Source: Asaia bogorensis (GTDB lineage: Bacteria > Pseudomonadota > Alphaproteobacteria > Acetobacterales > Acetobacteraceae). From it: a DNA stretch of 48,777 bases. Location of the stretch: contig CAMDGX010000030.1 in the NCBI GenBank assembly GCA_945897825.1, positions 1-48,777 of the forward strand. The letters run 5' to 3'. The notes beneath the pieces are model-generated. The model searched no databases and was not told the DNA's origin. It worked only from the letters and a program-made list of their open reading frames with translations. Both the position numbers and the translations under genes were made by a program. Below, one piece after another: positions 905-30,418 of the stretch (within the stretch, counting starts at the first letter, position 1; each line of letters begins with the position of its first letter).

Positions 905-1038
905 GGAAGACCTTCTTTTTCTGAAGAAAAAGAAGCAAAAAGACTTTCCATCCATTGGCACCGAGCCTGCCCGTTGTGCCTGGGGTGCAATGGGAAAAAG
1001 TTTTTTGGTTCTTTTTTTCAAAAAAGAACTTCTTTCCT
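905..1038. repeat. BIME-like paired-hairpin element, copy 1
   Basis: Two A/T-rich arms in inverted orientation flank a variable 28-bp loop. The left hairpin (912-935) has arms CTTCTTTTTC and GAAAAAGAAG around TGAA. The right hairpin (1008-1029) has arms GTTCTTTTTT and AAAAAAGAAC around TC. Between the hairpins and the loop lie complementary tracts (AAAAAGACTTT and AAAAAGTTTTTT), so the whole element can also fold as one long cruciform. It lies between the MoaD-like gene and the next start at 1056. Confidence 0.9.
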
Positions 1039-1055
1039 CCCTCCGGAGCCACCCC

Positions 1056-1871
1056 ATGCCCATCGCCCCGACCGACCGCATCGTCATCACTGGCGCCGCC
1101 GGCGCGATCGGCACCACGCTCCGCCGCGGCCTCGCCTCGCGCTGGTCCAACCTTCTCCTCACCGACCTGCGCAAGCCAGAGAACGCCGCCGGCACCTGGA
1201 TCGAAGCCGACATCGCCGACCGCCCCGCGATGGACCGAGCCATGCAGGGCGCCCAGGCCGTCATCCACCTCGCCGGCGCCGCCAGCAGCGACCTTGCCAC
1301 CCTCTGGCGCACCAACGCCGCCGGCCTGTTCGAGGTGTTCGAAGCCGCCCGCCACGCCGGCGTGAAGCGCATCGTCTATGCCAGCTCGAACCACGCCCAC
1401 GGCATGTATCCCATCGACGTCGAAGTCGCCCCGTCCATGCCGTCCCGGCCGGACGGGCACTACGGCGCACTCAAGGCCTATGGCGAACTGATCCTGAAAA
1501 GCTTCCACGACAAATACGCCATCACCTCGGTCTCCCTGCGCATCGGCACCTACCGCGACCTGCCGATCGACCAGCGCTCGCTGGCCACCTGGCTTTCCCC
1601 CGCCGACATGCTCCGTCTCGCCGAGGCCAGCCTCCTCCACCCCGACCCCGGCGCCCTCGTCGTCAACGGCTATTCCAACAACACCCGCCTGAAGGCCTCC
1701 CGCGAGAACTGGGACTTCCTCGGCTACACCCCCCAGGACGACGCCGAGACCCACCGCGACATGCTCCGCGCCCAGGGGTTCGACGTGGACTCGCCCGACC
1801 ACGGCATCTGGGAGTTCATGGAGCACGGCGGCAGCTACGCCCACGGGCCGGAGTTGCCGACGAAGCTGTAG
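1056..1871 (+). CDS. NAD-dependent epimerase/dehydratase, uronate dehydrogenase-like
   Basis: A 271-residue extended short-chain dehydrogenase. The NAD-binding block VITGAAGAIG is at residues 10-19, the catalytic pair is Tyr136 and Lys140 (YGALK), and Ser110/111 lies in YASSNHAHG. The blocks YASSNHAHGMYP, RPDGHYGALKAYGE, LRIGTY and LATWLSPADMLRL closely resemble bacterial uronate dehydrogenase, which oxidises glucuronate or galacturonate to the aldarolactone; that assignment is from family memory. An upstream in-frame ATG at 990 lies inside the repeat element and would add residues encoded by the repeat. The ATG at 1056, with GGAG at 1045-1048, is the better start. An amidase follows after 33 bp. 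Confidence 0.82.
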   Translation: MPIAPTDRIVITGAAGAIGTTLRRGLASRWSNLLLTDLRKPENAAGTWIEADIADRPAMDRAMQGAQAVIHLAGAASSDLATLWRTNAAGLFEVFEAARHAGVKRIVYASSNHAHGMYPIDVEVAPSMPSRPDGHYGALKAYGELILKSFHDKYAITSVSLRIGTYRDLPIDQRSLATWLSPADMLRLAEASLLHPDPGALVVNGYSNNTRLKASRENWDFLGYTPQDDAETHRDMLRAQGFDVDSPDHGIWEFMEHGGSYAHGPELPTKL

Positions 1872-1904
1872 CGCCACATCATGCCACCGACATGAGGGGG
1901 TGCC

Positions 1905-3311
1905 ATGAGCAACGCCATCGCCGACCTGGATACCGTCGCCCTCGCCGCCGCCATCGCGCGGCGCGAGGTCTCGCCCGTGCAGGCGGTCGAAGCGGCGCTC
2001 GCCCGCACCGATGAATGCCGCCGCCTCAACGCGTTCGTCACCGTCACCGCGGACGAAGCCCGCGCCGCGGCCCAGGCGCTGATGCCGCGCTGGCAGGCGC
2101 CAGGCGACCTTCCGCCGCTGTTCGGCGTCCCGTTCACCGCCAAGGACCTGACGCCCACGGCCGGCGTGCGCACCACGATGGGCTCGAAACTGTTCGCCGA
2201 CACGGTGCCGAAGGAGGATGCGCCGGCGGTCGCGCGCCTCAAGGCGGCCGGCGGCATCCTGCTCGGCAAGACCACCACGCCCGAGCTGGGCCACAAGGCC
2301 TTCACCCAGTCCAAGCTGTTCGGCCGCACGCTGAACCCCTGGAACGACGCCTTCACCTGCGGTGGCTCCTCCGGCGGCGCCGGCGTGGCAGCCCTGATGG
2401 GCATGGCGCCGCTGGCGCTGGGCACCGATGGCGGCGGCTCCATCCGCATTCCCGCCGCCTGCTCCGGCATCGTCGGCCTCAAGCCCACCCTCGGCGCCAT
2501 CCCGCAGCCCCAGGCGCCCGACCTGTTCGGCACCAACTCCGCCATCGGCCCGATGGCGCGCACCGTCGCCGAGATCGAATTCGCCTGGCGGCTGCTGCGC
2601 GGCACCGACCGGATGGACCCCTGGGGCCAATCCCCCCTGCCCGACCTGCCCGCCAAGCCGCTCGCCGGCCTGCGCGTCGCCTACCTACCCCGCTGCGGCT
2701 CGCCCGCCATCGCCCCCGAGGTCGCCGCCATCACCGAATCCGCCGCCCAACACCTGCGCGCGCTCGGCGCCATAGTCGAGGAAATCGCGCTCGACTTCTA
2801 CCGCTTCGAGGCGCCCTACCTGGTGATGCTGCAAAGCTCGGTGGCCGCCCGCGTCGCCCCCTTCCTCAAGGACCGGCGCGACGACATGGAAGAAAGCCTC
2901 GCCATCACCGCCGAACTCGGCCTGAAGCACTCCGCCGTCGCCCTGACCGCCTCGGCCGCCGCCCGCAGCGAGATGTTCCGCATGCTGCAAGGCGTCTTCG
3001 CGCGGTTCGATGTAATGCTCTCCCCGGTCACCACCGCCCCGCCCCTTCCAGTGGACACCGACCCGCACGGCCACATCACCATCAACGGCGTCGACTGCGG
3101 CACCATCCGCGGCGCCTGGTACCCCTTCACCTTCCCGATGAACCTGACCGGCCACCCCGCCCTGGCCCAACCCGCCGGCCTGTCCTCCGCCGGCACGCCG
3201 ATCGGCGTGCAACTGTGCGGCGCATGGCATTCGGAAGCCACGCTGCTGGCCACCGCGGCGGCGCTGGAAGCACGCCTGCCCAAACTCTCGCGCCCCACAG
3301 GAAGGCATTGA
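1905..3311 (+). CDS. Amidase-signature family amidase
   Basis: A 468-residue amidase-signature hydrolase, which cleaves amide bonds by a Ser-cisSer-Lys triad. The catalytic Lys80 is in PFTAKDL, the cis-Ser156 in CGGSSGGAG, and the nucleophile Ser179 in GTDGGGSIRIPA. The full length and the C-terminal block GHPALAQPAGLS are typical. The substrate is not visible; relatives include indoleacetamide hydrolases, Asp/Glu-tRNA amidotransferase-like enzymes and many unassigned amidases. The ATG at 1905 has GGGGG just upstream. The stop codon abuts the next repeat element directly. It probably forms an operon with the preceding dehydrogenase. Confidence 0.9.
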   Translation: MSNAIADLDTVALAAAIARREVSPVQAVEAALARTDECRRLNAFVTVTADEARAAAQALMPRWQAPGDLPPLFGVPFTAKDLTPTAGVRTTMGSKLFADTVPKEDAPAVARLKAAGGILLGKTTTPELGHKAFTQSKLFGRTLNPWNDAFTCGGSSGGAGVAALMGMAPLALGTDGGGSIRIPAACSGIVGLKPTLGAIPQPQAPDLFGTNSAIGPMARTVAEIEFAWRLLRGTDRMDPWGQSPLPDLPAKPLAGLRVAYLPRCGSPAIAPEVAAITESAAQHLRALGAIVEEIALDFYRFEAPYLVMLQSSVAARVAPFLKDRRDDMEESLAITAELGLKHSAVALTASAAARSEMFRMLQGVFARFDVMLSPVTTAPPLPVDTDPHGHITINGVDCGTIRGAWYPFTFPMNLTGHPALAQPAGLSSAGTPIGVQLCGAWHSEATLLATAAALEARLPKLSRPTGRH

Positions 3312-3446
3312 GCAAGACCTTCTTTTTCTGAAGAAAAAGAAGCAAAAAGACTTTTTCCTATTGCCAGCGGAAAGGCCGGGTGCCGATCCTTAGCTATGGA
3401 TGAAGTTTTTTTGCTTCTTTTTGTTCACAAAAAGAAGGTCTTCCTT
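3312..3446. repeat. BIME-like paired-hairpin element, copy 2
   Basis: This copy starts directly after the amidase stop codon. The left arm is the common type. The right arm is a variant: its hairpin is CTTCTTTTTG and CAAAAAGAAG around TTCA instead of the usual GTTCTTTTTT type. The G...C pair at the loop side replaces the C...G pair of other arms, a compensatory change. It fills the gap between the convergent amidase and the minus-strand flavoprotein. Confidence 0.88.
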
Positions 3447-3449
3447 CCC

Positions 3450-6400
3450 TTACTCCGCCGCCAGCGGCCGCGCCTCCAGCTTGCGCAGCGCCCGGTCGAT
3501 CCACTGCGCCGTGATCTTCTCCGCGAGCCCGTTCTGCCGCAGCCGTTCGTTCAGCGCCGGGAAGTCCACGCGGTCCAGCGCCTGGTCCTGGTTGAAGCAG
3601 GAGAACACGATGCTGCGCACGCCGGTCTCGGGGTCGGTATGCGGCTGGAGGCACTGCGCGCAGACCTCCTTCATCATGCACTGCATCGGCGAGTTGATGG
3701 AGCCGATGGCGGAATGCCCCGGCTTGAGATACGGCTTCAGCACCCCATGCCGCGCCGCGCCGACAGCCGCCATCATCCGGTCGGAGCCGATGACGATCAT
3801 GTGCGCCGCGTCCGAAAGCGGCACCGCCTGCTCGCCCAGCGCACCGGCGCCATATGCCGCCATCGCCTGCACGATGTTGCCGACGAAGGTGCGGTCCTGC
3901 GGCCGCGTCGGCGCGAAGCCCGGCGCCTCGTCGCAGCACCAGACGATCACATCGGCCGCGCGCTCGATCTCCTCCACCTTGTAGCGGTCGCGCAGCGCCT
4001 TGTAGCCGGCGAAGTAGATCACCTTCGACCCCGCCGCCCGCGTCGCCGCCCCGATCGAGAACAGCACCGCGTTGCCCAGCCCGCCGCCAACCAACGCCAC
4101 GGTCGTATCGGCATGGATCTCGGTGGCGGTGCCGGTCGGGCCCATCAGCACCACGGGCTCGCCCACCGGCAATGCCGCGCACAGATCCGAACTGCCGCCC
4201 ATCTCCAGCGCGATCACCGAAACCAGACCGGCCTCGGGGTCGGTCCAGGCGCCGGTCATCGCCAGCCCCTCCATGCCCAGCACGGTCTCGCCGATTCCAG
4301 GCTCCACCAGCCGCAGCGCGCGGGTCTCAAAGTTCTGCAACCTGTAGAACTGCCCCGGCCGGAACGCCCGCGCCGCCGCCGGGGCATGCAGCACCACCTC
4401 CACGATGGTCGGCGTCAGCCGGTGCACCGCATGCACGGTCGCCGTCAGCGCGGCACGACAGGCGGCAATCAGGTCACGGCCGGAAATCGCCGTCGGCGCA
4501 TGGGCGGCGAGGATGTTGCTCACCACCGGATAGCCGCGCTTGGCCCCGCCCATCGCCTTCACCACGTTGCCGAAGAAGCTCGGGTGCAGGTCGCCGAAGA
4601 AGCTGATGAACCGCTCGCCATCCCTGTGCATCAGCACATCGGCGCGGTCGGGCTTGGACAGCGCGCGCTGCGGCTCGACGCGCGCCCCGCTCGGATCGAT
4701 CGCCTCGAAATACTTCCCGTCGAGCTTGATCCGCCCGTCCTCGCGCGCCAGCACCGTGTTCGGCTGCGTGCCCGCCGCGACAATCACCGCGCGCGCCGGC
4801 AGCACGACCTCGCCGCCATCCGCGCGCTTCACCCGCAGCCCCGCCGCATGGCCATGCCGGTCGGTCTCGACCGCCAACGGCGTCAGCCCCTCGGCGAAGC
4901 GAACGCCCTCCTCCATCGCCTTGGCCACTTCCTCGTGGTTCAGCGTGTAGGACGGCGCATCGAGCAGTCGGCGGCGATAGGCCAGCGTCGCCCCGCCCCA
5001 GGCTTCCAGCAGCGGCGTGAACTGCGGCGCGCGGCCATCGCGGGCGGCGGCGGCGCGTTCGGCGGCCACCGCCTCGGCATGGGCGAGGAACTCGGCCGCG
5101 ACCTCCGCCTCCTCCTCCGACCAGCCGCGCCGCACCGCCGCCTCGCCGCGCTCGGCCACCAGCACGCGATGGCGCAGCGCGAACTTCTCCACCTGGCGCA
5201 CATAGTAGGCGAGGCTCTCGGTCGCGGTGTCGATCGCCGTCAGCCCGCCGCCGATCACCACGATCGGCATGCGGATCTGCAAATTTGCCACCGACGACAT
5301 CTTGGCCGCCCCCGTCAGCTGCAACGCCATCAGGAAGTCGCTCGCCTGCCGCACCCCGCGCGCCAACCCGCCGGGCATGTCGATCACCGTCGGCCGCCCC
5401 GCCCCCATGCACAGCGCGATGTGGTCGAACCCCATCGCCCAGGCATCGTCGATGGAAAGCGTGCCCCCGCCGCCGAACCGCACGCCGCCGAACAGCGCGA
5501 ACTGCGCCCGCCGCTCCAGCAGCAGCCGCACCAGCTTCAGGTAGTTCTTGTTCCAGCGCACCGTGATGCCGTACTCGGCCACGCCGCCGAACCCGGCCAT
5601 CACCCGGTCGTCCAGGTTCTCGAACAGCACGGCCGCATCGCGCACCGGCGCCGACACGTCGAAGCCCAGCGGCTCGATCTTCAGCCCGTCGACCGCCACC
5701 ACGGTGTGCCCGTCGTTCATCAGGTGATGCGCCAGGGTGAACCCCGCCGGGCCGAGCCCCACCAACAGCACCTTGCGCCCGGTATCGCTGGCAGGCAGCG
5801 GGCGGCGGATGTTCAGCGGGTTCCAGCGCACCATCAGGCTGTAGATCTCCACCCCCCACGGCAGCGCCAGCACGTCGCGCAGGATGTGCGTCTCGGCCTG
5901 CGGAATGTCGACCGGCTCCTGCTTCTGGTAGATGCAGGCCTTCATGCAGTCGTTGCAGATCCGGTGCCCGGTCGCCGCCATCATCGGGTTGTCGACGGCG
6001 ATGGTCGCGAACGCCCCCAGCAGGTGGCCCTGCGCGCGCAGCGCATGCATCTCGCTGATCTTCTCGTCGAGCGGGCAGCCGGCCAGCGTCACCCCGAAGC
6101 CGGATTTCTGAAACGCCCCGGTCTTGCGATCCTTCAGCCCCTTGCTGCACGAATCCTTGCCCTGGCTGTGGCACCAGATGCAGTAGTTCATCTGGTCCAG
6201 CGCCTGCTGCGTGTTCATCCCGGCATCGGTCAGCGCGAACCCGTCGCGCGCCCGATGATGATAACCGGCGGGGGCATGCTCCGGCAGCCGCAGCATCGTC
6301 ACCCCGTCGCGCTCGATCGTCTCCACCGGCACCAGGTTGTTCAGGTCGATGCGCGCCGGCACCCGGAACAGCGTGCCGCCTTCATGCGCCGCCCGCCCGG

Positions 6401-6902: not shown

Positions 6903-7438
6903 GCGGAAATCCTGGCGAGAAGGGCGAGCAGGGCGCGGCGGTCGTCCGGGGAAAGCGGGGCAAGGGTCTGGCGCGTGGCCCGCCGGGCATGATCCACGCC
7001 GCGCTGGGCGAGCGCCACGCCAGCGCCGGTCGCGGTCAGCACGGCGGTGCGCCGGTCCATAGGGTCGAGCGCGCGGTCCAGCAGGCCCCGCGCCACCAGG
7101 CGGCGCACCACCCCCTGGATCGTGGCCGGGTCCATCGCCGCCATCCGCCCCAGCTGGTTCTGGGTGACGCGCCCATGCTGCACCACCTTGACCAGCGCGG
7201 AAAACTGCCGCGGCGTCAGCTCCTTCTCGCCGATCCCCTCGGCCATGCAGGCCTGCCAGATCGCCGTCTGGCGCTGGTGCGCCCGGCGCAACAGGAAACC
7301 TATCTGGGATTCCACGGTGTAGCCGTCAAGCAGCGCCGCACGCTCGCGCGCCGCCTCGGCCTCGCCACGTGCGGAGCCATCCTGCGCAAGCCCGGGTTCG
7401 ATGCCTGATGCCATGCCGCCCCGCCGAGATCCCACCAT
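6899..7438 (-). CDS. MarR-family transcriptional regulator
   Basis: A winged-helix regulator of 179 residues from the ATG at 7438. The recognition region reads QNQLGRMAAMDPATIQGVVRRLVARGLLDR, followed by the wing (DPMDRRTAVLTAT) typical of MarR. An in-frame GTG at 7441 and an ATG at 7414 are alternative starts; neither has a strong ribosome binding site. Its stop overlaps the start of the fused flavoprotein by four bases, so it probably controls that gene and itself. An inverted repeat at 7453-7474, just upstream, is a good operator candidate. The ligand is unknown. Confidence 0.87.
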   Translation of the reverse strand: MVGSRRGGMASGIEPGLAQDGSARGEAEAARERAALLDGYTVESQIGFLLRRAHQRQTAIWQACMAEGIGEKELTPRQFSALVKVVQHGRVTQNQLGRMAAMDPATIQGVVRRLVARGLLDRALDPMDRRTAVLTATGAGVALAQRGVDHARRATRQTLAPLSPDDRRALLALLARISA

Positions 7439-7452
7439 CACCTATAGGCCGG

Positions 7453-7474: not shown

Positions 7475-7496
7475 GGTTGCGCAGGAGGGGCCTGCA

Positions 7497-12481: not shown

Positions 12482-12855
12482 ACACCCAGCCCCACCCCGG
12501 CGGCGAAAGCGACGCCGAACGCCAGGACCTCCTGCAGCGCGACGTGCTGCTGGTCGTCACCGCCATGCTGTCGCTGCTGAACGGCATGCACTTCTCGCCG
12601 TTCTTCGACCCCGCCTTCATCCTGCTGCGCCCCTTCGCCGCCGGCTTCTTCGTCTCGAGCCCGCTGGTGCTGCTCTACCTCACCTCGATCTTCGTCTCGC
12701 TCTGCACCCTGCTGATCGGCGGCCTCCCCGCCGCCCTCTACGAACGTCTGCGCGGCCTGCCCCGCTCCACCCCCGTCTCGCTCGGCATCTGGGCCGGCGG
12801 CGTGGCGCTGCTGGCCAGCCCTACGCTGTTGGGCCTCGGCGGTTTCTTCGAGTAA
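12478..12855 (+). CDS. Small membrane protein of unknown function
   Basis: A 125-residue protein with a charged N-terminus (about 20 residues) followed by three hydrophobic stretches, around residues 22-45, 55-85 and 100-122. I do not recognise a family. It overlaps the YggT-like gene by four bases (ATGA), so the two are translationally coupled and may work together in the membrane. The stop codon is directly followed by a repeat element, which then separates it from the CoA synthetase gene. Confidence 0.75.
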   Translation: MNTQPHPGGESDAERQDLLQRDVLLVVTAMLSLLNGMHFSPFFDPAFILLRPFAAGFFVSSPLVLLYLTSIFVSLCTLLIGGLPAALYERLRGLPRSTPVSLGIWAGGVALLASPTLLGLGGFFE

Positions 12856-12988
12856 GAGTCTTCTTTTTGTGAACAAAAAGAAGCAAAAAAACTTTTCCCC
12901 CTTTGCGCCGTGCTGAACAGGTCAGGCACCCCGCAAACGGATAAAAGTTTTTTGGTTCTTTTTTTCAAAAAAGAACATTCTTCCTTCC
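12856..12988. repeat. BIME-like paired-hairpin element, copy 3
   Basis: This copy starts directly after the previous stop codon. Its left hairpin is the rare variant CTTCTTTTTG / CAAAAAGAAG around TGAA, the same variant found on the right side of copy 2. Its right hairpin is the common GTTCTTTTTT / AAAAAAGAAC type. Rare arms on either side in different copies suggest that arms are exchanged between copies. Confidence 0.88.
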
Positions 12989-19914: not shown

Positions 19915-20046
19915 AAGCAAGACTCTTCTTTTTCTGAAGAAAAAGAAGCAAAAAGACTTTTATCCATTTGCATCGCGTTCAAATGTTTGGCGCAGGCCAA
20001 GGGATGAAAGTTTTTTGGTTCTTTTTTTCAAAAAAGAACGTGCTTC
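19915..20046. repeat. BIME-like paired-hairpin element, copy 4
   Basis: It fills the gap between two convergent genes (stops at 19911 and 20047). Both hairpins are the common types and the two arms are nearly complementary over their full length. The position fits a bidirectional transcription end. Confidence 0.9.
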
Positions 20047-21015
20047 CTACTCTTCGCTGAACCGCAGCCGATGGCTGGAATGGCCGTGGATGAAGAGGCG
20101 TGGGTTGCCGCCGGCCAGGGAGTCGGTGCCGCGGAGTTCAGGTTCGCCGATGGCCTGCACGTACCAGCCGCCGTGTTCGAGGATGCGCTCTGGCGGGGAC
20201 CATGAGGTGGGGTCGGCGATGTCGTCGATGAACGACACGTAGGCGCCTTCCTGGGTCCAGTCGGGGCCCTGGGTGCGGTTGAGCAGCACGACGTGGCAGC
20301 CGAGCGCCAGGTTGCGGTGGATGGAGGGGCCCCAGAAGGCGTCGGAGCGGTGTTCGTGCCAGGACGTGGTGGCGGGCAGGACGGGGCGGCCGGTGCCGCC
20401 GATGCCGGGTTCGGTCCAGCCGGTGCCGGTCCAGCGCCAGACTTTTCCGACGGGGTCGGGCAGGTCGGTGAGCGCGAGGCGGGCGATCTGGATGCCCTGG
20501 TGGGCGGCGGGGCCGGTGTAGGCGGAGAACAGGATGTAGGCGTGGCCGGAGGCGGGGTCGATGGCCCAGCTTGGGTCGCCGACGCCGCCGGGGAAGTAGG
20601 TGTTGGGGGAGGATTCGCAGCTGTCGTCGACATCGGGATCCTGGAGGACCAGGCCGAGGTCGTGGAAGCTGTGGCCACCATCGTGGGAGCGGGCGATGCC
20701 GATGGCGGGGACGGTGAACCAGAGCCGGTCGGGGCAGCGGCGGGCGTAGTCCTCGCGGTGGTAGAGGGCCCAGAGATCGCCCTGGTCGTCGCGGTGGATG
20801 GCCTCGATCCACCAGTGCACATGCTCGGCGCCGAGCAGGCGGACGGGGTGGGGGTGGGCGAGGTGGTCGAGGCTGGGGCCGGAGGTGAAGGAAGGGGTTT
20901 GGGCGGAGGTGAAGAGGTGGAAACCCCGGTCGTCCCAGAAGGACGGGGAGTTGCAGTCGGTGTTGCCGGGGAGGCGGAGATGGGGGGCGGGCTCGAGGGT
21001 GATGCGGCGGGTCAT
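20047..21015 (-). CDS. Sialidase/glycosidase-like beta-propeller protein, function unknown
   Basis: A 322-residue soluble protein with no signal peptide. Asp-box-like and blade-like segments recur: NTDCNSPSFWDDRGFHLF, WIEAIHRDDQGDLWALYH, GIARSHDGGHSFHDLG, GDPSWAIDPASGHAYILFS and DAFWGPSIHRN. This resembles five-bladed propeller proteins of the GH43/sialidase-like fold, but I cannot assign an activity. No good ribosome binding site precedes the ATG at 21015. It stands alone between two BIME-like elements. Confidence 0.72.
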   Translation of the reverse strand: MTRRITLEPAPHLRLPGNTDCNSPSFWDDRGFHLFTSAQTPSFTSGPSLDHLAHPHPVRLLGAEHVHWWIEAIHRDDQGDLWALYHREDYARRCPDRLWFTVPAIGIARSHDGGHSFHDLGLVLQDPDVDDSCESSPNTYFPGGVGDPSWAIDPASGHAYILFSAYTGPAAHQGIQIARLALTDLPDPVGKVWRWTGTGWTEPGIGGTGRPVLPATTSWHEHRSDAFWGPSIHRNLALGCHVVLLNRTQGPDWTQEGAYVSFIDDIADPTSWSPPERILEHGGWYVQAIGEPELRGTDSLAGGNPRLFIHGHSSHRLRFSEE

Positions 21016-21085
21016 GGGGGGAGGCTACCATGCGGGCGCCTTGTGTCGACCGGCGGCATAGGCGGGGCGGGACGCGAAGGTGAAG

Positions 21086-21220
21086 CAAGAGTCTTCTTTT
21101 TCTGAAGAAAAAGAAGCAAAAAGACTTTTTATCTATTTGTACCGCGGGCGGATGGTCCAGCATGGCGCAAATGGACAAAAGTTTTTTGGTTCTTTTTTTC
21201 AAAAAAGAACGTTCTTCCTT
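21086..21220. repeat. BIME-like paired-hairpin element, copy 5
   Basis: It lies between two co-directional minus-strand genes (fahA end at 21223 and the propeller gene start at 21015). Both arms are the common type. It would sit in the leader region of the propeller gene and at the end of the hmgA-fahA transcript. Confidence 0.9.
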
Positions 21221-21222
21221 TC

Positions 21223-22509
21223 CTACGCTGGCAGTACCAGCCCTCGACACGACCCGAAGCCGATGCTTGCGGCGCCATCGCGCTGGGCGCGGGCGTACAG
21301 GGTGATTTCGTCGCCGTCGTGGAGGAATGCTCGGATTTCGCCGTTGGGCAGGGTGAGGGGGTTTCGGCCGCCGCGGGTGATTTCCATCAGGGCGCCCCAG
21401 CCGGTGGGTTCGGGCGAGGAGATGGTTCCGGTGCCGAAGAGGTCGCCGGGGTGGAGGTCGCAGCCGTTGCTGGCGTGGTGGGCGACCATCTGGGCGGGGG
21501 TCCAGTAGAGGTGGAGCGCGTTGCCGAGGGAGAGGCGGGCGGGGGGGTGGTTTTCGGCGCGCATTTGGGCGGTGTGGAGTGTGACTTCAAGCGTGAGGTC
21601 GAGGGCGCCGGTGGCCTGGTCGGCCGGGTCGTGCAGGTGGGGGAGCGGGGCGGGGTCGCCGTTGGGGCGTGGGGGTTGGGGGGCGCGGAAGGGGGCGAGG
21701 GCTTCGGGGGTGATGACCCAGGGGGAGATGGAGGTTTGGAAGTTCTTGGCCAGGAAGGGCCCGAGGGGTTGGGATTCCCAGGACTGGATGTCGCGGGCGG
21801 ACCAGTCGTTCAGGAGGCAGTAGCCGGCGATGTGGTGGGCGGCGTCGGCGATGGGGATGGGGTGGCCGGGTTGGTTGCCGGGGCCGATCCAGATGCCGAG
21901 TTCGAGCTCGTAGTCGAGGTTGCGGCAGGGGCCGTAGGTGGGGGCTTGTTCGTCGGGGAGCTTGCGCTGGCCTTGCGGGCGGCGGAGGGGGGCTGGGGAG
22001 GGGCGGACCGAGGAGGCGCGGCCGTGGTAGGCGACGGGGACGTATTTGTAGTTCGGCATCAAGGGGTTGTCGGGGCGGAAGAGCAGGCCGCCGTTTCGGG
22101 CGTGGTGGATGCCGGCGTAGAAGTCGGTGTAGTCGCCGATTTTCGCGGGGAGGTGGAGGGTGCAGGCGGCGGCTTCGTGGAGGAGGGTTTCGCGGGCGGG
22201 GCTGGTTTCGTGCAGGAGGGCGAAGAGTTGGGTGCGCAGGGCCTGGCGGGCGGGAGCGCCGCGGGCGAAGAGGGGGTTGAGGGAGGCGGTGGTGGCCTCG
22301 ATGGCGCTTACGGCTTCGCCGGTAAGGAGGCCGGCGGCGAGGGCGGCGCGGAGGTCGAGGATGGCGTCGCCGATGGCGGTGCCGGGGCGGGGGGTGCCGT
22401 TCGGCGGGGAGAAGATGCCGAGGGGGAGGTTCTGGAGGGGGAAATCCGGGTGGCCGTTGGCGCTGCGGACCCAGGAGCGGGCGGTGGGGGCGTGGGTTTG
22501 GTCGATCAT
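21223..22509 (-). CDS. fahA: Fumarylacetoacetase
   Basis: A 428-residue enzyme that splits fumarylacetoacetate into fumarate and acetoacetate, the last step of homogentisate/tyrosine breakdown. The N-terminal SH3-like domain is followed by the FAH catalytic fold: [24 protein letters not shown], the metal-binding [10 protein letters not shown], and [14 protein letters not shown] with NFQTSISPW. Length and order match the family. The start overlaps the hmgA stop by four bases (ATGA), so expression is coupled. Maleylacetoacetate isomerase, needed between the two enzymes, is not in this window. Confidence 0.95.
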
Positions 22510-23841: not shown

Positions 23842-23850
23842 TTCGGGAAG

Positions 23851-25554
23851 CTATTCGTAGAGGCGGATGCGGAAGGTGCGCTTTGCCATGCTGCACATTC
23901 CCAGGTCGCGATGCGGCAACCGCTGGAGGGCGCTTTCTATCATGCCGCAGCTTTGCATGGTCAGCGACGCGTTCGGCTCGCGCGGCGCCGGCGTCGTGTT
24001 CAGGACCGCGACCATGGGTTTTTGGGCGCTCTCCAACTGCCGCGCGACTGTTTCGCCGATTTCGCACGTATTCTGTTGGCCTGGCTCTTCGCTGATGAAG
24101 GTGGTGGCCGGGCGGAGGTCGATCCTCAGCTGGTACAGAATGACCGCGTTGTCGCCGAAGCTGTCGTAACTCTCATGGCCGACGAACAGTGATTTCGCAG
24201 ACGGGGGAAAGAGGTCCGTGCAGCCAGACGTCCATTGGCGGGCCAGTTGGTCTCCCCGCTGCCAGTCAGGGCGCAGGCCGACTTTGCGCGCGTGATAGTC
24301 GGCCGATGCAAGGAGGGGGACCAGCAGGATGCCGCCACACAATATAGCAGTCGCGGTTGTTGCCAGTCGCGACCACAGCGCCAGGGAGATGATCCCTGCC
24401 GCGCCGATCATGAAAGTCAGTGACAAGAGATGCGCGCCGTCCGCACGCCCGAACGCATACGGCATGATTGCGACGGGCATGCCAAAGACAACGGCCATCT
24501 CGCCCAGCCTCGACGCGCCAGGCATCCGCCAGGGGCGGAAGGACAATACCGCTGCTGTCGCCAAGGCGGCGAGGGAGAACGGCGCGGTGATCCATTGCGC
24601 GTCCATGGTGAAGATGCTGGTGACCGGCGGGAGTGGTAGCGTCCGATAAGGCAATGTTGTCAGCGGAATTCCAAACATCCACTGCAGCGCCGCCGGCAAC
24701 GTGCCTTGATGCAGAGTGAACGCCGCGATGATCCCGGCGCCGAGCACCATTCCCGCGGCACTCGCAGCGGCGCAGGCGCCGAGGCGGGCCGACAGGTGCT
24801 TCATGGTTGCGCGTGCGCCCGTCAGGGACGGCAGGGTTGGCGACGCCCAGACAATGACCGCCGCACCGACGAGAACGAGGGTCATCGGCAGGATGCGATC
24901 CCAGCGCCAGACCATCGTTGCGGTGGATACAAGAACGTAGCAACAGATGTTGAGCCTGGTTGGGCCATTGCGGATCACGACGACCGGCACAAGGCACATC
25001 GCCATCATGAGGCCTGTAATGAGAGGCTCCCATCCCCAGGCGCCCCAGAACAGTACGACGATGGACATGAAGAGGAGATAGCAAGTCGCGACGAAAACCC
25101 GCCGCAGTCGATCGCTTATGGCCCAGATCAAGGCCATGTTGATTGCGTGAAGGATCGCCGTGAGGGTCCAGGCGACGAGATAAATGCTTGCCGGTGTCTC
25201 AAGCCCCAGGAGTGTACCGAACACGGCCGCGACGCCGGGGCCGTAGACTTCCCCGAAGTCTCGGTACATCACCAGGCCACGGGCAGGATAGGCCGATTGC
25301 AGGACATAGAGCGGACCGTCGTAGAAGAACGGCGGGTGCGCATTGAATATCGCCGCGGTGAATGACCATGTCGCGGCGACTGCGCCGAGTAGAAGCCCCG
25401 CCCAGCCCACGAATTGCAGGACGGACGGCTGGGACGCGAGCCACGCGGTCCTCGGGGCCAGCGCAACATGGGCCGAGACTTGGCTGGCTGTCGCTGCGGT
25501 GTCTGGCCGGTCCTTCGCGTGCGCGGGGCCGGCAGGACCGGGGCCATTGGGCAT
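23851..25554 (-). CDS. Polytopic membrane protein, glycosyltransferase-like, lower GC
   Basis: A 567-residue protein (580 if the ATG at 25593 is used) with about eleven hydrophobic segments and a C-terminal soluble tail of about 140 residues. Loops such as [18 protein letters not shown] and [11 protein letters not shown], placed early, resemble lipid-linked-sugar glycosyltransferases of the GT-C type; I cannot name a family. Base composition is clearly lower in GC than the flanking genes and codon choice is more mixed, which suggests horizontal gain. It lies between DUF2783 and hmgA and so interrupts the homogentisate cluster. TTGCCG-N17-TATGCT upstream would favour the start at 25554. Neither start has a clear ribosome binding site. 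Confidence 0.7.
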
Positions 25555-25665
25555 GGGATACCACGAACGTTCCGATACAATAGCATATCGCATACGGAAT
25601 CGATCGGCAATGCGGCAGCCCCGGCCGGGCAGTCGTGGCGCGGTCGGGCGTGCGGGCTTGGCTGG

Positions 25666-25860
25666 TCAGGCGGGCTTTGCGGCGAGGGCGATGGCCTGCT
25701 TGACGATGTCCGGGTCGCCGATGTGATTGGCGAGCAGGAGGACGAGCTTGGCGTCGAGTTGGCGGGAGGCTTCGGGGGTGAGGTCGCGGTGGGCGTTCAT
25801 CAGGGCTTCGAAGACGCCGTCGGGGTCGGGGAGGTTGGCGGTGGTGATCAGGGTTGGCAC
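25666..25860 (-). CDS. DUF2783 small protein
   Basis: A 64-residue protein (TANLPDPDGVFEALMNAHRD, then a hydrophobic helix) of the DUF2783 family. Members occur next to FAD monooxygenase genes in homogentisate and aromatic clusters, but their role is unknown. The GTG start at 25860 follows GGAGAG and overlaps the end of the monooxygenase by 13 bp. That implies tight coupling and perhaps a protein partner role. Confidence 0.85.
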   Translation of the reverse strand: MPTLITTANLPDPDGVFEALMNAHRDLTPEASRQLDAKLVLLLANHIGDPDIVKQAIALAAKPA

Positions 25861-27395
25861 AGGGCTCTCCGGTGGGCGGCGGCGATGGCCTCCCGGGTCG
25901 GGCGGTGCCAGCGGGCGGCGATGTGGTGGTCGGGGCGCAGCAGGATGACGTCGCCTTCGGTGGCGGCGTAGCGGGCGGCGGCGGGCGAGGTCGGCGGGAG
26001 GTTCAGTTCGCCTAGGCCGGGCGGAAGCGGAGGGCTGGGGCCGAAGGTGAAGGCGGTGAAGGTGGGGGGGAGGCGGCGGAGGAGCCAGCCTTGGTCGGTG
26101 GGGGCGTCGGGGGCGGGGGTGCCGGGCGGGGGGCCGCCGGTCCACGGGGTGTCGTCCGGCATGTTGAGGGGGGAGGCGGTGTAGGTGGCGGGGCGGGCGA
26201 GGCGGCCGGAGTTGACCGGGGGGCGGGCGAATGCGTGGTGCTCGGCGAGCGACAGGATGGCGGCGCGGTAGGCGTGGGCGGCGTCGTTCTTGGGGGTGAT
26301 GAAGTCGGTGCTGCGGGTGGAGTTCAGGATGTTCTCGTCGGCGGCGGGGATGCGTTCGGCGTCGTAGGTGTCGAGCAGGGATTCCGGGGCTTCGCCGTGC
26401 AGGTGGGCGGCGAGTTTCCAGGCGAGGTTGTCGGCGTCCTGGATGCCGCCATTGCCGCCGCGGGCGCCGAAGGGGCTGACCTGGTGGGCGGCGTCGCCGA
26501 GGAAGAGGATGCGGCCGTGGCGGAACTTCTCCAGGCGGCGGCAGCGGAAGGTGTAGACGCTGACCCATTCGAGCTCAAACTCGACGTTCGGGCCGAGCAT
26601 GGCGGCGACGCGGGGGCGGACGTTCTCGGGGCGCTTTTCCTCGTCGGGGTCGGCGTTCCAGCCGAGTTGGAAGTCGATGCGCCAGACGTCGTCGGCCTGG
26701 CGGTGGAGGAGGACGGAGCCGCCCGGGTGGAACGGCGGGTTGAACCAGAACCAGCGCTCGGCGGGGAAGGGCGCCTTCATGGTGACGTCGGCGATCAGGA
26801 AGCGGTCCTGGAAGGTCTTGCCGACGAAGGGGAGGTCGAGGCGGCGGCGGATTTCGCTGCGGGCGCCGTCGGCGGCGAGGAGCCAGTCGGCTTCGAGGGT
26901 GGTGGGGCCGTGCGGGGTTTCGATGTGCAGGGTGGTGTGGGTTTCGTGGCGGATGAGGTCGGTGACGCGGTGTTTCCAGCGCAGGTCGACGCCGGCCTGC
27001 TCGCAGGCCTGCACGAGGAGTTCCTCCAGGTGGTACTGCTGGAGGTTGATGAAGGCGGGGAATTCGTGGCCGGGTTCCTGCTGGAGGTCGAAGGCGTAGA
27101 CCTGCTTCTCGCCGGCGAAGACGCGGCCGGTGTTCCAGGTGACGCCCTTGGCCAGGAGCGCGTCGCCGAGGCCGAGGCGGGAGAGGATTTCGAGGGTGCG
27201 CTTGGCGTGGCAGATGGCGCGGGAGCCGATGGAGACGGTGTCGTCGTCGTCGAGCAGGACCGTCCTGATGCCGCGCTGGGCGAGGTCCAGCGCCACGGTG
27301 AGGCCGACCATGCCGCCGCCGACGACGATCACGGGGTGGCGGGCGCCGGGGTCGCTGGGGGGACGGGCGGGGTAGCGGGGCGGGGTGTAGGGCAT
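25848..27395 (-). CDS. FAD-dependent aromatic monooxygenase
   Basis: A 515-residue class A flavoprotein hydroxylase related to 3-(3-hydroxyphenyl)propionate hydroxylase. It has the FAD-binding VVGGGMVG near residue 24, the DG block LLAADGARSEIRRRL, and the GD block LFLGDAAHQVSPFGARGGNGG. It adds a hydroxyl to an aromatic ring using NAD(P)H and oxygen. Next to hmgA it could make homogentisate from a hydroxyphenylacetate-type substrate, but the substrate is not visible. A BIME-like element ends 2-3 bp from the ATG, so the leader lies within the repeat and no strong ribosome binding site is seen. Confidence 0.9.
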   Translation of the reverse strand: MPYTPPRYPARPPSDPGARHPVIVVGGGMVGLTVALDLAQRGIRTVLLDDDDTVSIGSRAICHAKRTLEILSRLGLGDALLAKGVTWNTGRVFAGEKQVYAFDLQQEPGHEFPAFINLQQYHLEELLVQACEQAGVDLRWKHRVTDLIRHETHTTLHIETPHGPTTLEADWLLAADGARSEIRRRLDLPFVGKTFQDRFLIADVTMKAPFPAERWFWFNPPFHPGGSVLLHRQADDVWRIDFQLGWNADPDEEKRPENVRPRVAAMLGPNVEFELEWVSVYTFRCRRLEKFRHGRILFLGDAAHQVSPFGARGGNGGIQDADNLAWKLAAHLHGEAPESLLDTYDAERIPAADENILNSTRSTDFITPKNDAAHAYRAAILSLAEHHAFARPPVNSGRLARPATYTASPLNMPDDTPWTGGPPPGTPAPDAPTDQGWLLRRLPPTFTAFTFGPSPPLPPGLGELNLPPTSPAAARYAATEGDVILLRPDHHIAARWHRPTREAIAAAHRRALCQP

Positions 27396-27397
27396 CA

Positions 27398-27517
27398 GGA
27401 TTCTTCTCTTTCTGTAGAAAAAGAAGCAAAAAGACTTTCATCCATTTGCGCGCGGAAGGTCCGTGCTAGCCTAATGGATGAAAGTTTTTTGGTTCTTTTT
27501 TTCAAAAAAGAACATGC
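27398..27517. repeat. BIME-like paired-hairpin element, copy 6
   Basis: The shortest copy. It runs from just before the monooxygenase ATG to the stop of the MBL-fold gene, both on the minus strand. The left hairpin carries one mismatch (CTTCTCTTTC against GAAAAAGAAG), and the right one is perfect. The element would be the leader of the monooxygenase message if transcription reads through from the MBL-fold gene. Confidence 0.88.
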
Positions 27518-28489
27518 TTACTTGATCTCTCCGTCCTTCGCCTTGCCCTCGAGCGCCTTCCACATCTCGATATCGCGCTCCGCTGTCCAGATGCGCGGCG
27601 TGTCGATGCCTTTGGCCTCGTCGAAGGCGCGGCTGACGTTGAAGGGCATGCAGTGGTCGAAGATGACCCAGTGGCCGAATTCGGGGCGCATCCGGTCGAT
27701 CGCTTCGGCGTAGATGGCGCGCAGGTCGGCCCCCTTGGCGGCGGCGGCCTTGACGATGGCGAAGAGTTTGCTGGTGAAGGCCTCGGTGCCGTCCAGCGCT
27801 TCCTTCACCTCGGCGGCGTTCATCAGGGCGCGGCCGCGGCCGGGGACCATCTTCTCGGCGCCGAGCTCGCGCAGCTTGCGGATGGTGGAGGGCCAGTCGG
27901 TGAAGTGGGCGTCGCCACAATAGGGGGTGGCGCCGAACTCGACGGTGTCGCCGGCGAAGAGGACTTTCTCCTTCGGCAGCCAGACGATGGTGTCGCCGGC
28001 GGTATGGGCGCGGCCGATGTGGATGATTTGCGCTTCGCGGTCGCCGAGCCAGAGGGTCATTTTCTGGTGGAAGGTCTGGGTGGGCCAGGTGAGGCCGGGG
28101 ATGCTTTCCTTGCCGCGGAACAGGCGGGGGAAGCGGCCGATCTCGCTGTCCATGTCCTGCTGGCCGCGCTCGACGATCATGCTGCGGCAGACGTCGGAGG
28201 CGATGATCGAGTGGGCGGGGTAGCCGGTGGCGCCGAGGACGCGGACGGCGTGGTAGTGGGTGAGGACGATCTGGGTGACCGGCTTGTCGGTGACGGTGGC
28301 GATTTTTGCCTGGACGTCGGCGGCCATGATCGGGGTGGCCTGGGCATCGACGACGACCGTGCCGTTCGGGCCGACGATGACGCCGGAGTTGGGGTCGCCC
28401 TCGGCGGTGTAGGCGTAGAGGCCGGGGCCGAGCTCGTCGAACGAGACCTGCTTTTCGGCCATGTCGTTGGTGGAGGCGAAGCCGGACAT
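27518..28489 (-). CDS. MBL-fold metallo-hydrolase-like protein with altered metal motif
   Basis: A 323-residue metallo-beta-lactamase-fold protein. The block normally reading HxHxDH is THYHAVRVLGA here: His78 and His80 are kept but the Asp-His pair is replaced by Val82-Arg83. The later ligands look normal (GRAHTAGDT, LFAGD). The loss should weaken or remove the second metal site. The ATG at 28489 with GGGAG upstream is preferred over the longer frame from 28582, which runs into the divergent MarR gene. It is divergent from MarR across a 77-bp gap and heads the monooxygenase/DUF2783 operon. Function in the homogentisate cluster is unknown. Confidence 0.85.
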   Translation of the reverse strand: MSGFASTNDMAEKQVSFDELGPGLYAYTAEGDPNSGVIVGPNGTVVVDAQATPIMAADVQAKIATVTDKPVTQIVLTHYHAVRVLGATGYPAHSIIASDVCRSMIVERGQQDMDSEIGRFPRLFRGKESIPGLTWPTQTFHQKMTLWLGDREAQIIHIGRAHTAGDTIVWLPKEKVLFAGDTVEFGATPYCGDAHFTDWPSTIRKLRELGAEKMVPGRGRALMNAAEVKEALDGTEAFTSKLFAIVKAAAAKGADLRAIYAEAIDRMRPEFGHWVIFDHCMPFNVSRAFDEAKGIDTPRIWTAERDIEMWKALEGKAKDGEIK

Positions 28490-28558
28490 GATTTCCACTC
28501 CCTGGGCGCGGTTCGCAGGATGCACGAAGCGGCGTAGGCTGTCTTGGGACAGGGCGAT

Positions 28559-28574
28559 AGTTTCAGATGGAACT
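28559..28574. promoter_or_regulatory. MarR-type operator dyad overlapping the MarR start
   Basis: AGTTTC AGAT GGAACT matches the hmgA-upstream dyad (AGTTTC GGGT GAAACT) except for one arm base and the spacer. It spans the ATG of the MarR gene, so binding would block its own expression; it lies 70-85 bp upstream of the MBL-fold start. Confidence 0.6.
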
Positions 28575-29076
28575 GAATGCAAGTGCTGCGCTGGACGGGC
28601 CGTTCCTGCTGGAGGGGTTCCTGCCCTACCAGTTGTCGGTGGCGGCGAACCGGATTTCGCGGCTGTTCGCGCGGCGGTATTCGCGGGAGTTCGGGGTTTC
28701 GATCGCCGAATGGCGGGTGATGGCGGTGGTGGGGCGGTTCGGGGCGATCACGGCGCGCGTGGTGGCGGAGCGGACCGAGATGGACAAGGTGAAGGTGAGC
28801 CGGGCGGCCGCGGGGCTGCTGGGCAAGGGGTTGCTGGCGCAGGCGGTGGACCCGCAGGATGGGCGGGCGCGGCTGTTGCGGCTGACGGCGCGGGGGCAGG
28901 ACGTGCATCGGGCGATCGTGGCGCGGGCGCGGACGCTGGCCGGCGAGTTGGCGGCGGGATTGGCGCCGGGGGAGCAGGCGGCGTTGCAGTCGGCGCTGGC
29001 GCGGTTGAGTGTGCATGCCAGGTTGCTGGAGGAGGCGGAGGGGGGTGACGAGCCCCCTGCCCCGCCGGAACCCTAA
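28567..29076 (+). CDS. MarR-family regulator, probable homogentisate-cluster repressor
   Basis: A 169-residue MarR protein. The N-terminal dimer helices (LPYQLSVAANRISRLFARRY) and the winged helix (ERTEMDKVKVSRAAAGLLGKGL) are typical, with the wing DPQDGRARLLRLTARG. The Pro/Glu-rich C-terminal tail is probably disordered. It is divergent to the MBL-fold gene of the aromatic cluster and carries at its own start the dyad that also lies upstream of hmgA. A homogentisate-responsive repressor is the simplest reading (inference). It is followed after 11 bp by a CinA-like gene. Confidence 0.88.
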   Translation: MELNASAALDGPFLLEGFLPYQLSVAANRISRLFARRYSREFGVSIAEWRVMAVVGRFGAITARVVAERTEMDKVKVSRAAAGLLGKGLLAQAVDPQDGRARLLRLTARGQDVHRAIVARARTLAGELAAGLAPGEQAALQSALARLSVHARLLEEAEGGDEPPAPPEP

Positions 29077-29087
29077 GGGAGGTTGCT

Positions 29088-29570
29088 ATGGAACGGTTGA
29101 TGCCGGTGGCGGAGCGGGTGGGCGCGTTGCTGAAGCAGCGCGGCGACAAGGTGGCGGTGGCGGAGAGCTCGGCCGGCGGGTTGATCTCGGCGGCGCTGCT
29201 GGCGGTGGCCGGGGCCTCGGCCTACTACCAGGGGGGTGTGGTGGTGTACACGCGGCTGTCGCGCAACCTGTTGCTGGACCTGTCGGACCGGGACCTGGCC
29301 AGCGTGCCGCCGAATTCGGTGGGGATGGCGGCGCTGATGGCCGGCGCGGTGCGGGAGAAGTTCGGCACCACCTGGGGGCTGGCGGAGACTGGGGCGGCGG
29401 GACCGGGCGGCAACAGGTATGGGCATCCGGCCGGGCGGGCGTGCTTCGCGGTGGCCGGCGCGATGCCGCTTTCGCTGCAGATCGACACGGATATCGACGA
29501 CCGGGTGGAGAACATGTGGCTGTTCGCCGAGCGCGCCTTGCAGGTGTTCGAGGAAGCGTTGAAGGGCTGA
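29088..29570 (+). CDS. CinA C-terminal-domain protein (nicotinamide-nucleotide amidase type)
   Basis: A 160-residue stand-alone CinA C-terminal domain. The family's catalytic Ser is in VAESSAGGLIS, followed by YYQGGVVVYTR and AETGAAGPGGNRYG. PncC/CinA-C enzymes deamidate nicotinamide mononucleotide to nicotinate mononucleotide in NAD recycling. The ribosome binding site AAGGGAGG is strong. It is 11 bp after the MarR gene and overlaps the next gene by one base, so the three are cotranscribed. Confidence 0.85.
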   Translation: MERLMPVAERVGALLKQRGDKVAVAESSAGGLISAALLAVAGASAYYQGGVVVYTRLSRNLLLDLSDRDLASVPPNSVGMAALMAGAVREKFGTTWGLAETGAAGPGGNRYGHPAGRACFAVAGAMPLSLQIDTDIDDRVENMWLFAERALQVFEEALKG

Positions 29571-30286
29571 TGGACGAGGTTTCGCTGCTGCGGGCGCTGC
29601 ACCGGCCCGGGACGATCGTGGATGTCGGCGCGCATGACGGGGCGCTGACGGTGCCGCTGGCGGGGCTGGCGGGCGCGCGCGTGCTGGCGTTCGAACCGCT
29701 GCCGAGCGCGTTCGCGCGGCTGGAGGCGGCGGTGGCCGGGTTGCCGGTGGAACTGCGGCGCGAGGCGCTGGGAGTGGGGCCTGGGCGGCTGTCGCTGGAG
29801 GTGCCGGTGGTCGGCGGGATCGCGCGGGAGCAGTGGGCATCAGTCGCGAAGGACTATGGCGCGATTGCGGCGGCTGACCCGCGGGTGGAGGACGTGCTGC
29901 GCTGGGATGTCGAGGTGATCGCGCTGGATTCGCTCGGGTTGGACGACGTGACCGCGATGAAGGTGGATGCGGAGGGCGCCGAGGAGGAGGTGCTGCGCGG
30001 CGCGGAAGCGACGCTGCGTCGGTGCCGGCCGGTGCTGACGGTCGAGATCGAGGAGCGGCACCGGGCGGGCAGCACCGTGGCGGTCCCGGCGTTCCTGGCG
30101 GGGCTGGGGTATCGGGGGTTCTACTGGCTCGACGGGACGTGGCGGGCGATCGAGACGTTCGATGCCTCCGTCATGCAGGTGGCGTCGGTGTCGCCGGCGA
30201 GTTTCGCGGCGTCGGACCCGTATGTGTTCGTGTTCGCGTTCGTGCCGGAGGGGCGGGTGGGGGAGTTGCTCAAGGTCACAGGATAA
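29570..30286 (+). CDS. FkbM-family methyltransferase
   Basis: A 238-residue SAM-dependent methyltransferase. The SAM-binding motif IVDVGAHDGALTVPLAG is followed by the acidic strand ending VLAFEPLPSAF, and by the FkbM block MKVDAEGAEEEVLRGAE. FkbM proteins O-methylate sugars or polyketides; this substrate is unknown. It starts one base inside the CinA stop (TGATG). Its stop is directly followed by a BIME-like element. Its place in the MarR-CinA operon does not explain a role. Confidence 0.85.
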   Translation: MDEVSLLRALHRPGTIVDVGAHDGALTVPLAGLAGARVLAFEPLPSAFARLEAAVAGLPVELRREALGVGPGRLSLEVPVVGGIAREQWASVAKDYGAIAAADPRVEDVLRWDVEVIALDSLGLDDVTAMKVDAEGAEEEVLRGAEATLRRCRPVLTVEIEERHRAGSTVAVPAFLAGLGYRGFYWLDGTWRAIETFDASVMQVASVSPASFAASDPYVFVFAFVPEGRVGELLKVTG

Positions 30287-30288
30287 GA

Positions 30289-30418
30289 AAGGTCTTCTTT
30301 TTCTGAAAAAAAAGAAGCAAAAAGACTTTTATCCATTGGCGCCGCGGGCAAAGGTCAGCCTGGGCAAAAATGGATGAAAGTTTTTTGGTTCTTTTTTTCA
30401 AAAAAGAACATTCTTGCC
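30289..30418. repeat. BIME-like paired-hairpin element, copy 7
   Basis: It fills the gap between the convergent FkbM (stop 30286) and DUF1272 (stop 30419) genes. The left hairpin has one mismatch from the common type; the right one is perfect. Its complementary tracts (GACTTTTATCCATT and its partner with AATGGATGAAAG) are the clearest of the set. Confidence 0.9.

Follow-up and report, generated by a model that had tools for sequence, protein, structure and literature searches.

The window analyzed here is a stretch of 48,777 nucleotides from Asaia bogorensis (Acetobacteraceae; contig CAMDGX010000030.1). An initial annotation, made from the sequence itself, had placed seven copies of a paired-hairpin element in it, at 905, 3312, 12856, 19915, 21086, 27398 and 30289. 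All seven are present, and each is a head-to-head pair of arms (Table 1). The two arms had been described as inverted around a variable loop. They are indeed an inverted pair, and each consensus arm is additionally a perfect inverted repeat; the loop does vary in sequence but is not free, tending to a G/C-rich hairpin that keeps its pairing. Equally, the copies do lie in gaps beside stop codons: six of the seven have a stop codon 12 bp or less from an arm, and the copy at 905 lies 31 bp past one. The features set out below modestly favor the view that this is an interspersed 3′-end element restricted to one bacterial family, which may serve as a bidirectional terminator or message stabilizer.

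Structure of the Element

The element is made up of two A/T-rich arms of about 35 nt that flank a variable center, the second arm of each pair standing in reverse complement orientation, and its total length is about 118-120 bp. The consensus arm alone is a perfect inverted repeat of 10-11 bp with a "GA" center, followed by the tail CAAAAA(R)ACTTT, and its hairpin reads CTTCTTTTT-n-TGAA-n-AAAAAGAAG or is a covarying variant of this. Three arm types are commonest: A is CTTCTTTTTCTGAAGAAAAAGAAGCAAAAAGACTTT, B carries a central GTGAAC and ends in AAAAAAACTTT, and C is GTTCTTTTTTGAAAAAAAGAACCAAAAAACTTT. Exact A, B or C was seen in 53/80 arms recovered by the first of two arm finders in the source-genome sample (both described below). 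The outer flank consensus is AAGnAAG (193 arms of the genus), mirrored by CTTnCTT on the other side. Reading on from a gene, the order is stop codon, AAGnAAG, arm hairpin, CAAAAA(R)ACTTT, a variable and mostly G/C-rich hairpin, the reverse complement of the same parts, and CTTnCTT.

Centers in the source-genome sample are 26-92 nt long (median 48), mostly G/C-rich and hairpin-forming. RNA of both strands, read 5′ to 3′, has an A-rich arm with an A-tract, then a G/C-rich stem, then a U-rich arm with interrupted U-tracts (TTTTTTGGTTCTTTTTTT). Each of the seven window copies is a long imperfect hairpin that folds better than 200/200 shuffles, the RNA of copy 2 reaching a fold z of -9.4. The commonest pair type in the sample is A..C (29/42), and A..A or C..C did not occur (0/42). 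The GTAG/CGTC tetranucleotide tag is absent from consensus arms A, B and C, and Rfam gave no match at gathering score on either strand of the window.

Arms also occur back to back, eight such pairs having been found in samples of other genomes and none in the source-genome sample. This inside-out form, with few bases between the arms, is seen at L063:10040, L064:9030, L065:1444, L110:4711, L117:4123, L164:10017 and L166:5666, and several of these have an outer AAACGAATA/TATTCGTTT-like inverted repeat of their own.

Table 1. Positions of the seven copies in the window, with arm types in parentheses and the neighboring genes (ORF, open reading frame).
Copy	Element	First arm	Center	Second arm, inverted	Context
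1	903-1041	912-947 (A)	948-996	997-1029 (C)	Outer AAGnAAG/CTTnCTT flanks; co-directional genes; next called start 26 bp past element; alternative ATG of that ORF at 990, inside element
2	3312-3446	3319-3354 (A)	3355-3401	3402-3437 (B)	Occupies whole convergent gap; stops 7 and 12 bp off
3	12853-12985	12860-12895 (B)	12896-12943	12944-12976 (C)	Co-directional genes; 4 bp past a stop codon
4	19915-20046	19925-19960 (A)	19961-20006	20007-20039 (C)	Stop of minus-strand gene 20047-21015 7 bp away
5	21083-21222	21093-21128 (A)	21129-21177	21178-21210 (C)	Stop of minus-strand gene 21223-22509 (FAA hydrolase family) 12 bp away
6	27395-27517	27403-27438 (A, 2 mismatches)	27439-27480	27481-27513 (C)	Stop of minus-strand gene 27518-28498 4 bp away
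7	30287-30418	30294-30329 (A, 1 mismatch)	30330-30376	30377-30409 (C)	Occupies whole convergent gap; stops 7 and 9 bp off

Copy Number and Placement Relative to Genes

Across the whole source genome (4.93 Mb, 208 contigs, 96.7% complete) a 35-nt pattern with at most 3 mismatches gave 170 + 207 = 377 A/B-type arm matches, and the control, an identical search on reversed, uncomplemented sequence, gave 0. The proposal of a large interspersed palindromic family is thereby borne out. A sample of this genome, 448,777 bases made up of the window and twenty 20-kb stretches, contained 86 arms in the form of 42 pairs and 2 single arms. Chance can be ruled out for the arms, since the reversed control of the same sample was 0. 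Without the seven pairs of the window the sample holds 35 pairs in 400 kb, from which roughly 430 elements per genome can be extrapolated.

Two arm finders were applied to this sample. The first, a fuzzy regular expression, missed arms (36 pairs and 8 single), and the later one used Hamming distance (42 and 2). Position counts, single-arm counts and the fold z of centers come from the Hamming finder; the fuzzy expression underlies the center pairing in the genus, random placement, stop-codon usage, the first G-U test set, the single-arm intervals, the orthologous sets and the directed site comparisons. Genes were called throughout by a home-made caller.

Arms are not found in genes as often as in gaps: at a coding fraction of 0.898 in the sample, 2/86 lie mostly within called genes. 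Twenty of the 42 pairs are in convergent gaps, 19 in co-directional gaps and 1 in a divergent gap, with 1 at an edge and 1 overlapping a called gene. The tie to stop codons that had been suggested is close, 52/59 stop-side distances falling between -5 and 15 bp, compared with 3/21 start-side distances. When 118-bp segments were placed at random in these gaps, 12% of positions were convergent, 56% co-directional and 31% divergent, and 10.3% of stop-side distances were 15 bp or less, although in this null the elements themselves create part of the gaps used.

Similar placement is seen elsewhere. The eight further genomes of the genus yielded 46 pairs, of which 17 are convergent, 26 co-directional, 1 divergent and 2 at edges, with 45/60 stop-side distances between -5 and 15 bp. 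Nineteen pairs from other genera, partly chosen at matches, are distributed as 2 convergent, 13 co-directional, 3 divergent and 1 edge (12/17 stop-side distances in that range). A scan of assembled genome contigs supplied 85 exact A..C elements, from 80 of at least 96 loci among the matches listed; 29 are convergent, 41 co-directional, 7 divergent, 5 at edges and 3 overlapping, and 81/99 stop-side distances are between -5 and 15 bp. Stop-codon usage also differs at the elements: adjoining genes end in TAA, TAG and TGA in 42, 37 and 25 cases (n = 104), vs. 78, 180 and 549 (n = 807) for the remaining genes of the loci sampled in the genus. By eye, the stop codon is often inside or touching the outer AAGnAAG motif.

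Conservation, Covariation and Folding

Five orthologous sets from the genus (2-5 members, chosen for detected arms) show differences at 27/1795 positions in the arms (1.5%), 709/1399 in the centers (51%) and 1873/7397 in the 145-bp flanks (25%). In the set around L030:11758, arm differences number 0/690, with 45% in centers and 16% in flanks. Copy 1 has orthologs in three further genomes of this genus. When arm-bearing sites were each compared with another genome (122 directed comparisons), arms were present there in 89 cases and absent in 33. At one site three genomes have a type A left arm and a fourth has type B; the remaining orthologous sets that were compared retain their arm types.

Changes in the arm hairpins are paired: at the foot C-G becomes G-C, inside T-A becomes A-T or G-C, and next to the loop the pair is C-G, G-C or T-A. 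Among 24-nt arm cores, in a set that includes loci picked by arm pattern, the three commonest forms account for 286/343 and have all 11 pairs intact; without the loci from the viral and genome-contig scans, exact A or B makes up 82 + 34 of 160 cores. The arms are near-identical across genera, and so sequence, not pairing alone, probably matters to some protein or RNA polymerase.

The centers pair better with themselves than with the halves of other elements, although kinship among elements inflates the z values that follow. Self-pairing was 17.8 vs. 14.4 for 68 centers (z 7.6), 20.8 vs. 18.7 for 28 centers of the source genome (z 2.9; 1/200 shuffles as high) and 20.1 vs. 12.1 for 70 centers of the genome scan (z 19.3), twelve Gluconacetobacter/Nguyenibacter loci being left out of the last. 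Mean fold z was -2.9 for the 42 source-genome centers, -2.95 for 84 others and -0.4 for 60 intergenic control pieces.

Centers may also be exchanged. At the orthologous site L029:4458, L035:5524, L038:6870 and L047:2208 the center is unrelated in L047, as if exchanged, with arms and near flanks kept. Centers of similar sequence (GATGCGGAGAGG..CCTCTCCGCATC) are found again at further sites and in other metagenome-assembled genomes (MAGs).

Taxonomic Distribution

Related Acetobacteraceae were expected to carry the repeat, and it is indeed not limited to this strain: the arm core (at most 2 mismatches) occurs in 95/397 genomes of the family and in 33/102 genera (reversed control 0). All nine genomes of the source genus have it, with 203 to 546 matches each. 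A class sample of 385 genomes, searched with a slightly wider pattern, gave 2 positives, both of the family, and none of the 380 genomes from the class's other families had the pattern. On this sampling, the repeat is limited to a single bacterial family, Acetobacteraceae. Within genera it is patchy, ranging from 0 to 235 matches in one (g17) and standing at 77, 0, 0, 7 and 0 in another (g56).

Carriers of exact A..C elements, among the matches listed, include Gluconacetobacter tumulicola, liquefaciens, takamatsuzukensis, aggeris, asukensis and dulcium, together with Pseudoroseomonas aestuarii, Roseomonas sp. GC11, Acidomonas methanolica and Nguyenibacter vanlangensis. MAGs are among these matches too, some titled merely Alphaproteobacteria, Proteobacteria or Rhodospirillales. 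Two plasmid records matched, both from Pseudoroseomonas cervicalis; in the one inspected the match starts 6 bases past a gene end. None of the paper texts searched contained the four arm strings and no description of this repeat family was met, most subscription papers being outside the search.

Viral records hold arms as well. One phage record, an A/T-rich Microviridae sequence marked UNVERIFIED (L069, MG945182.1), matches the C-arm end exactly over 36 nt (5906-5941). The arm is preceded by some G/C-rich DNA, a stretch that ends near it, and could reflect an assembly chimera or a captured element. Among IMG/VR viral contigs (L070-L123), C arms are in 33 stretches and A/B arms in 34, some of them probably host DNA.

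Spread and the Search for a Mover

Complete copies with sharp ends occur at different sites, as in miniature inverted-repeat transposable elements (MITEs). One genome, G037, holds two 119-bp elements that are identical across arms and center, 5.5 kb apart and with dissimilar flanks. At a second locus, site X, an element separates in six genomes two co-directional genes whose frames, read from the sequence, overlap in G274 as ATGA. We infer that G274 keeps the ancestral state, loss there being possible instead. No clear target-site duplication was seen by eye in the flanks of the G037 copies or at site X. A search for a parent transposon found no transposase among six ORFs, drawn from 5/20 intervals between single arms; these encode an acetyltransferase, an RTX-repeat protein, a helix-turn-helix/cupin regulator, an asparagine synthase, a phage-hub-like protein below the curated cut-off (L083) and one product with no match.

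The copies had been likened to a repetitive extragenic palindromic (REP) family forming bacterial interspersed mosaic elements (BIMEs), with a REP-associated tyrosine transposase (RAYT) as the thing to look for. More than 100 intergenic palindromic copies in alternating orientation were found, as in REP/BIME families (377 A/B arms; 42 head-to-head pairs), and the back-to-back pairs resemble BIME modularity in form. The description as BIME-like stands to that extent, and fails on the lack of a RAYT link and of the GTAG/CGTC tag. PF01797 (RAYT/Y1) has no match in the source genome at its 96.7% completeness. Among genomes chosen from the family survey, 8/40 arm-positive vs. 4/40 arm-negative ones match, the two strongest matches being in non-carriers. 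In the 3.5 to 15 kb around four carrier matches, those in G033, G244 and G062 lack an arm and that in G332 has one A-type arm about 2.4 kb off. A RAYT was accordingly rejected as mover, and with it membership of a REP/BIME family in the RAYT sense.

Weak Y1 matches are located at G033:C53:15978-16313, G244:C4:3983-4318, G297:C303:1064-1399 and G332:C122:53028-53138. Those in three genomes of the genus lie in open frames of 222 aa, and the 3.5-kb stretches at G033 and G244 are without arms.

Proposed Function at Gene Ends

Other hairpins use the slots of the element in relatives. In each of two places with both flanks orthologous, genome G119 holds an element and the source genome another structure: a short ordinary G/C-rich hairpin in the gap 46810-46870, and a long G/C-rich inverted repeat at 45014-45135. 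Conversely, the slot of copy 6, again between orthologous flanks, contains a CACAGAG-like inverted repeat instead in G244, G033 and G212. The gene after copy 3 is preceded in G244 and G033 by a short hairpin with CTTTTTC; the preceding gene differs there, so this is not the same slot. As to intrinsic termination, placement after genes and folding fit, and the U-tracts are interrupted. Sigma-70-like promoters numbered 0 in 12 kb with four copies, which carries little weight since 0.7 would be expected by chance.

These other repeats form groups of their own. The window has long G/C-rich inverted repeats at 45014-45135 (CAGGG..CCCTGGACC..GGTCCAGGGG..) and 48660-48753, and repeats similar to the former were seen by eye in other convergent gaps (L016, L021, L023). 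The alternative in the slot of copy 6 belongs to a second inverted-repeat family (CACAGAGACACAGAG-like, with a long stem) found at L030:5309-5505, L031:11671-11863 and L048:10321-10532, with outer flanks that are partly AAGnAAG/CTTnCTT-like.

How might such an element work? In a convergent gap it would stop transcription arriving from either side. Where genes are co-directional it would probably be a partial terminator, a 3′ end shielding the upstream message in the manner of REPs, or both; a downstream start often lies within 50 bp, which is not easily reconciled with full termination and leads to the reading "partial terminator or message protector." Transcription termination at the elements is our inference. 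The complete element may be copied to new places like a non-autonomous mobile element and persist mostly where it adjoins stop codons, and the near-frozen arms would be read by some factor. A bolder version, which we offer only tentatively, is a mobile terminator of Acetobacteraceae that would insert at gene ends, often supply TAA/TAG stop context and a transcription stop for one or two genes, and spread via a host or mobile factor reading the frozen arms; across whole genomes, many gene ends would then have been re-fitted with the same standard part.

Several observations weigh against the favored 3′-end reading. A simple terminator scan found 12 candidates vs. 7.4 expected (standard deviation 2.7), a weak enrichment, with three matches on elements. 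The next gene start is close behind the element in the source-genome sample (12/21 start-side distances of 50 bp or less), and 2/5 paired elements of G037 are in divergent gaps. Single arms are commoner outside the source genome, at 26/126 in other genomes of the genus and 13/59 in other genera vs. 2/86, contig ends and diverged partners being counted in. The orthologous sets were picked because both arms were detected, so that decayed copies are missing and arm conservation is flattered, and in one set (S4) the center differs less (10/117) than the flanks (149/447). The arms could also have been kept alike by conversion between copies, although in the sets compared arm types mostly persist and A..C pairs stay asymmetric. 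Lastly, co-directional elements lack an excess of G-U over A-C on the transcribed strand (75 vs. 65, p 0.45); one set gave a suggestive 48 vs. 27 (p 0.02) and the other 27 vs. 38, in the opposite direction. Because of this balance, selection at the RNA level over the DNA level is not demonstrated.

Alternative Explanations

The element could be a useless, MITE-like relic that was copied by a transposase and is left at gene ends by selection against insertions in genes and promoters. The identical G037 copies with dissimilar flanks, the patchy distribution with large copy-number differences between congeners and the two divergent-gap copies in G037 all suit a relic. Even decay would be expected of it, yet arms differ by 1.5% and centers by 51% at orthologous sites (again in sets chosen for detected arms), and gene avoidance alone fails to place 52/59 ends at -5 to 15 bp from a stop. 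With no transposase among the six interval ORFs and no clear target duplication by eye, we consider a relic unlikely, though deserving of serious weight. Somewhat more doubtful is an element read as duplex DNA, with a binding site or cruciform (for a nucleoid protein, gyrase or roadblock) keeping converging or neighboring genes apart. It would account for the perfect inverted repeat of the consensus arm, with its 2-nt center and the paired changes that keep it at several positions, for the lack of G-U bias on the transcribed strand and for sequence conservation beyond pairing; the strict post-stop placement and the other terminator-like hairpins in the same slots point to transcript ends instead.

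Mutational processes may mimic selection. If quasi-palindrome templated correction in replication made the center pairing and gene conversion homogenized the arms, no structural selection would be needed. Correction between arms predicts A..A or C..C pairs, yet A..C, which is mismatched across the element, is the commonest (29/42, against 0 for A..A and C..C), and the remaining orthologous sets compared kept their arm types. This leaves such processes improbable, even with the absence of strand bias in paired and mismatched positions, the many copies with identical arms and the site where one genome has a B left arm and three have A on their side. A true REP/BIME, generated and mobilized by a RAYT-type tyrosine transposase, is already weakened and now has little to recommend it. 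REPs are described as species-specific (PMC2817692), whereas these arms are conserved across genera; the lack of a PF01797 match in the source genome, the 8/40 vs. 4/40 comparison, the three of four stretches around carrier matches with no arm (one arm 2.4 kb off in the fourth) and the missing GTAG tag all outweigh the high copy number, the intergenic hairpin arms in alternating orientation, the back-to-back forms and the weak Y1 matches of three further genomes in the genus. Uptake signal sequences doubling as terminators, as in Haemophilus and Neisseria, would likewise give a conserved, family-restricted sequence in inverted pairs at gene ends. Those signals measure about 9-11 nt and number about 1000 or more (PMC1852404), and 35-nt arms in hundreds of copies are a poor match. 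Since 2/86 arms of the source-genome sample lie mostly in genes and 2/86 stand alone, an uptake signal is hardly credible.

Comparison with Known Systems

A 3′-end element of the kind favored here has counterparts among several known repeats. Enterobacterial repetitive intergenic consensus (ERIC), Correia and other MITE-like intergenic palindromes are imperfect, non-autonomous and about 100-150 bp long. The element is like them in size and intergenic location; it is unlike them in its locking to stop codons, since to our knowledge ERIC/Correia-type palindromes are not locked in this manner. Terminators are usually regarded as locally made and free in sequence. With ordinary bidirectional intrinsic terminators the element shares an A-tract, a G/C stem and a U-tract, and other hairpins use the same slots in relatives. 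It differs from them in a fixed 35-nt arm sequence common to loci and genera, and we know of no ordinary terminators that share such a sequence between loci or genera.

Uptake signals are present within genes. The uptake-signal terminators of Neisseria and Pasteurellaceae, as one account describes them (PMC1852404), consist of a conserved repeat arranged as inverted pairs where genes end, thought to be terminators, and the element resembles them in this. Its arms are longer and themselves hairpins, its copies fewer, and few of them are in genes or alone (source genome). REP/BIME families with RAYT (PMC2817692; PMC3733652) likewise have hundreds of intergenic hairpin units per genome in alternating orientation, with suggested roles in termination and message stability. 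Here, in contrast, there is no RAYT link found and no GTAG/CGTC tag, the arms are near-identical across genera, placement is strictly post-stop and the element is about 118 bp with a covarying center.

The family thus presents one sequence-conserved part at hundreds of gene ends in one genome, absent from many relatives and sharing slots with other hairpins. It makes testable whether transcription ends can spread as repeats, whether the arms have a reader and what becomes of operons when an element lands between overlapping genes. It can be used as a gene-end marker for annotation in these bacteria, and for high-G+C hosts it offers a candidate part for bidirectional termination. Compared with the known systems, it would be a terminator- or REP-type 3′ end in its working and MITE-like in its spread, and the tests place it in neither group.

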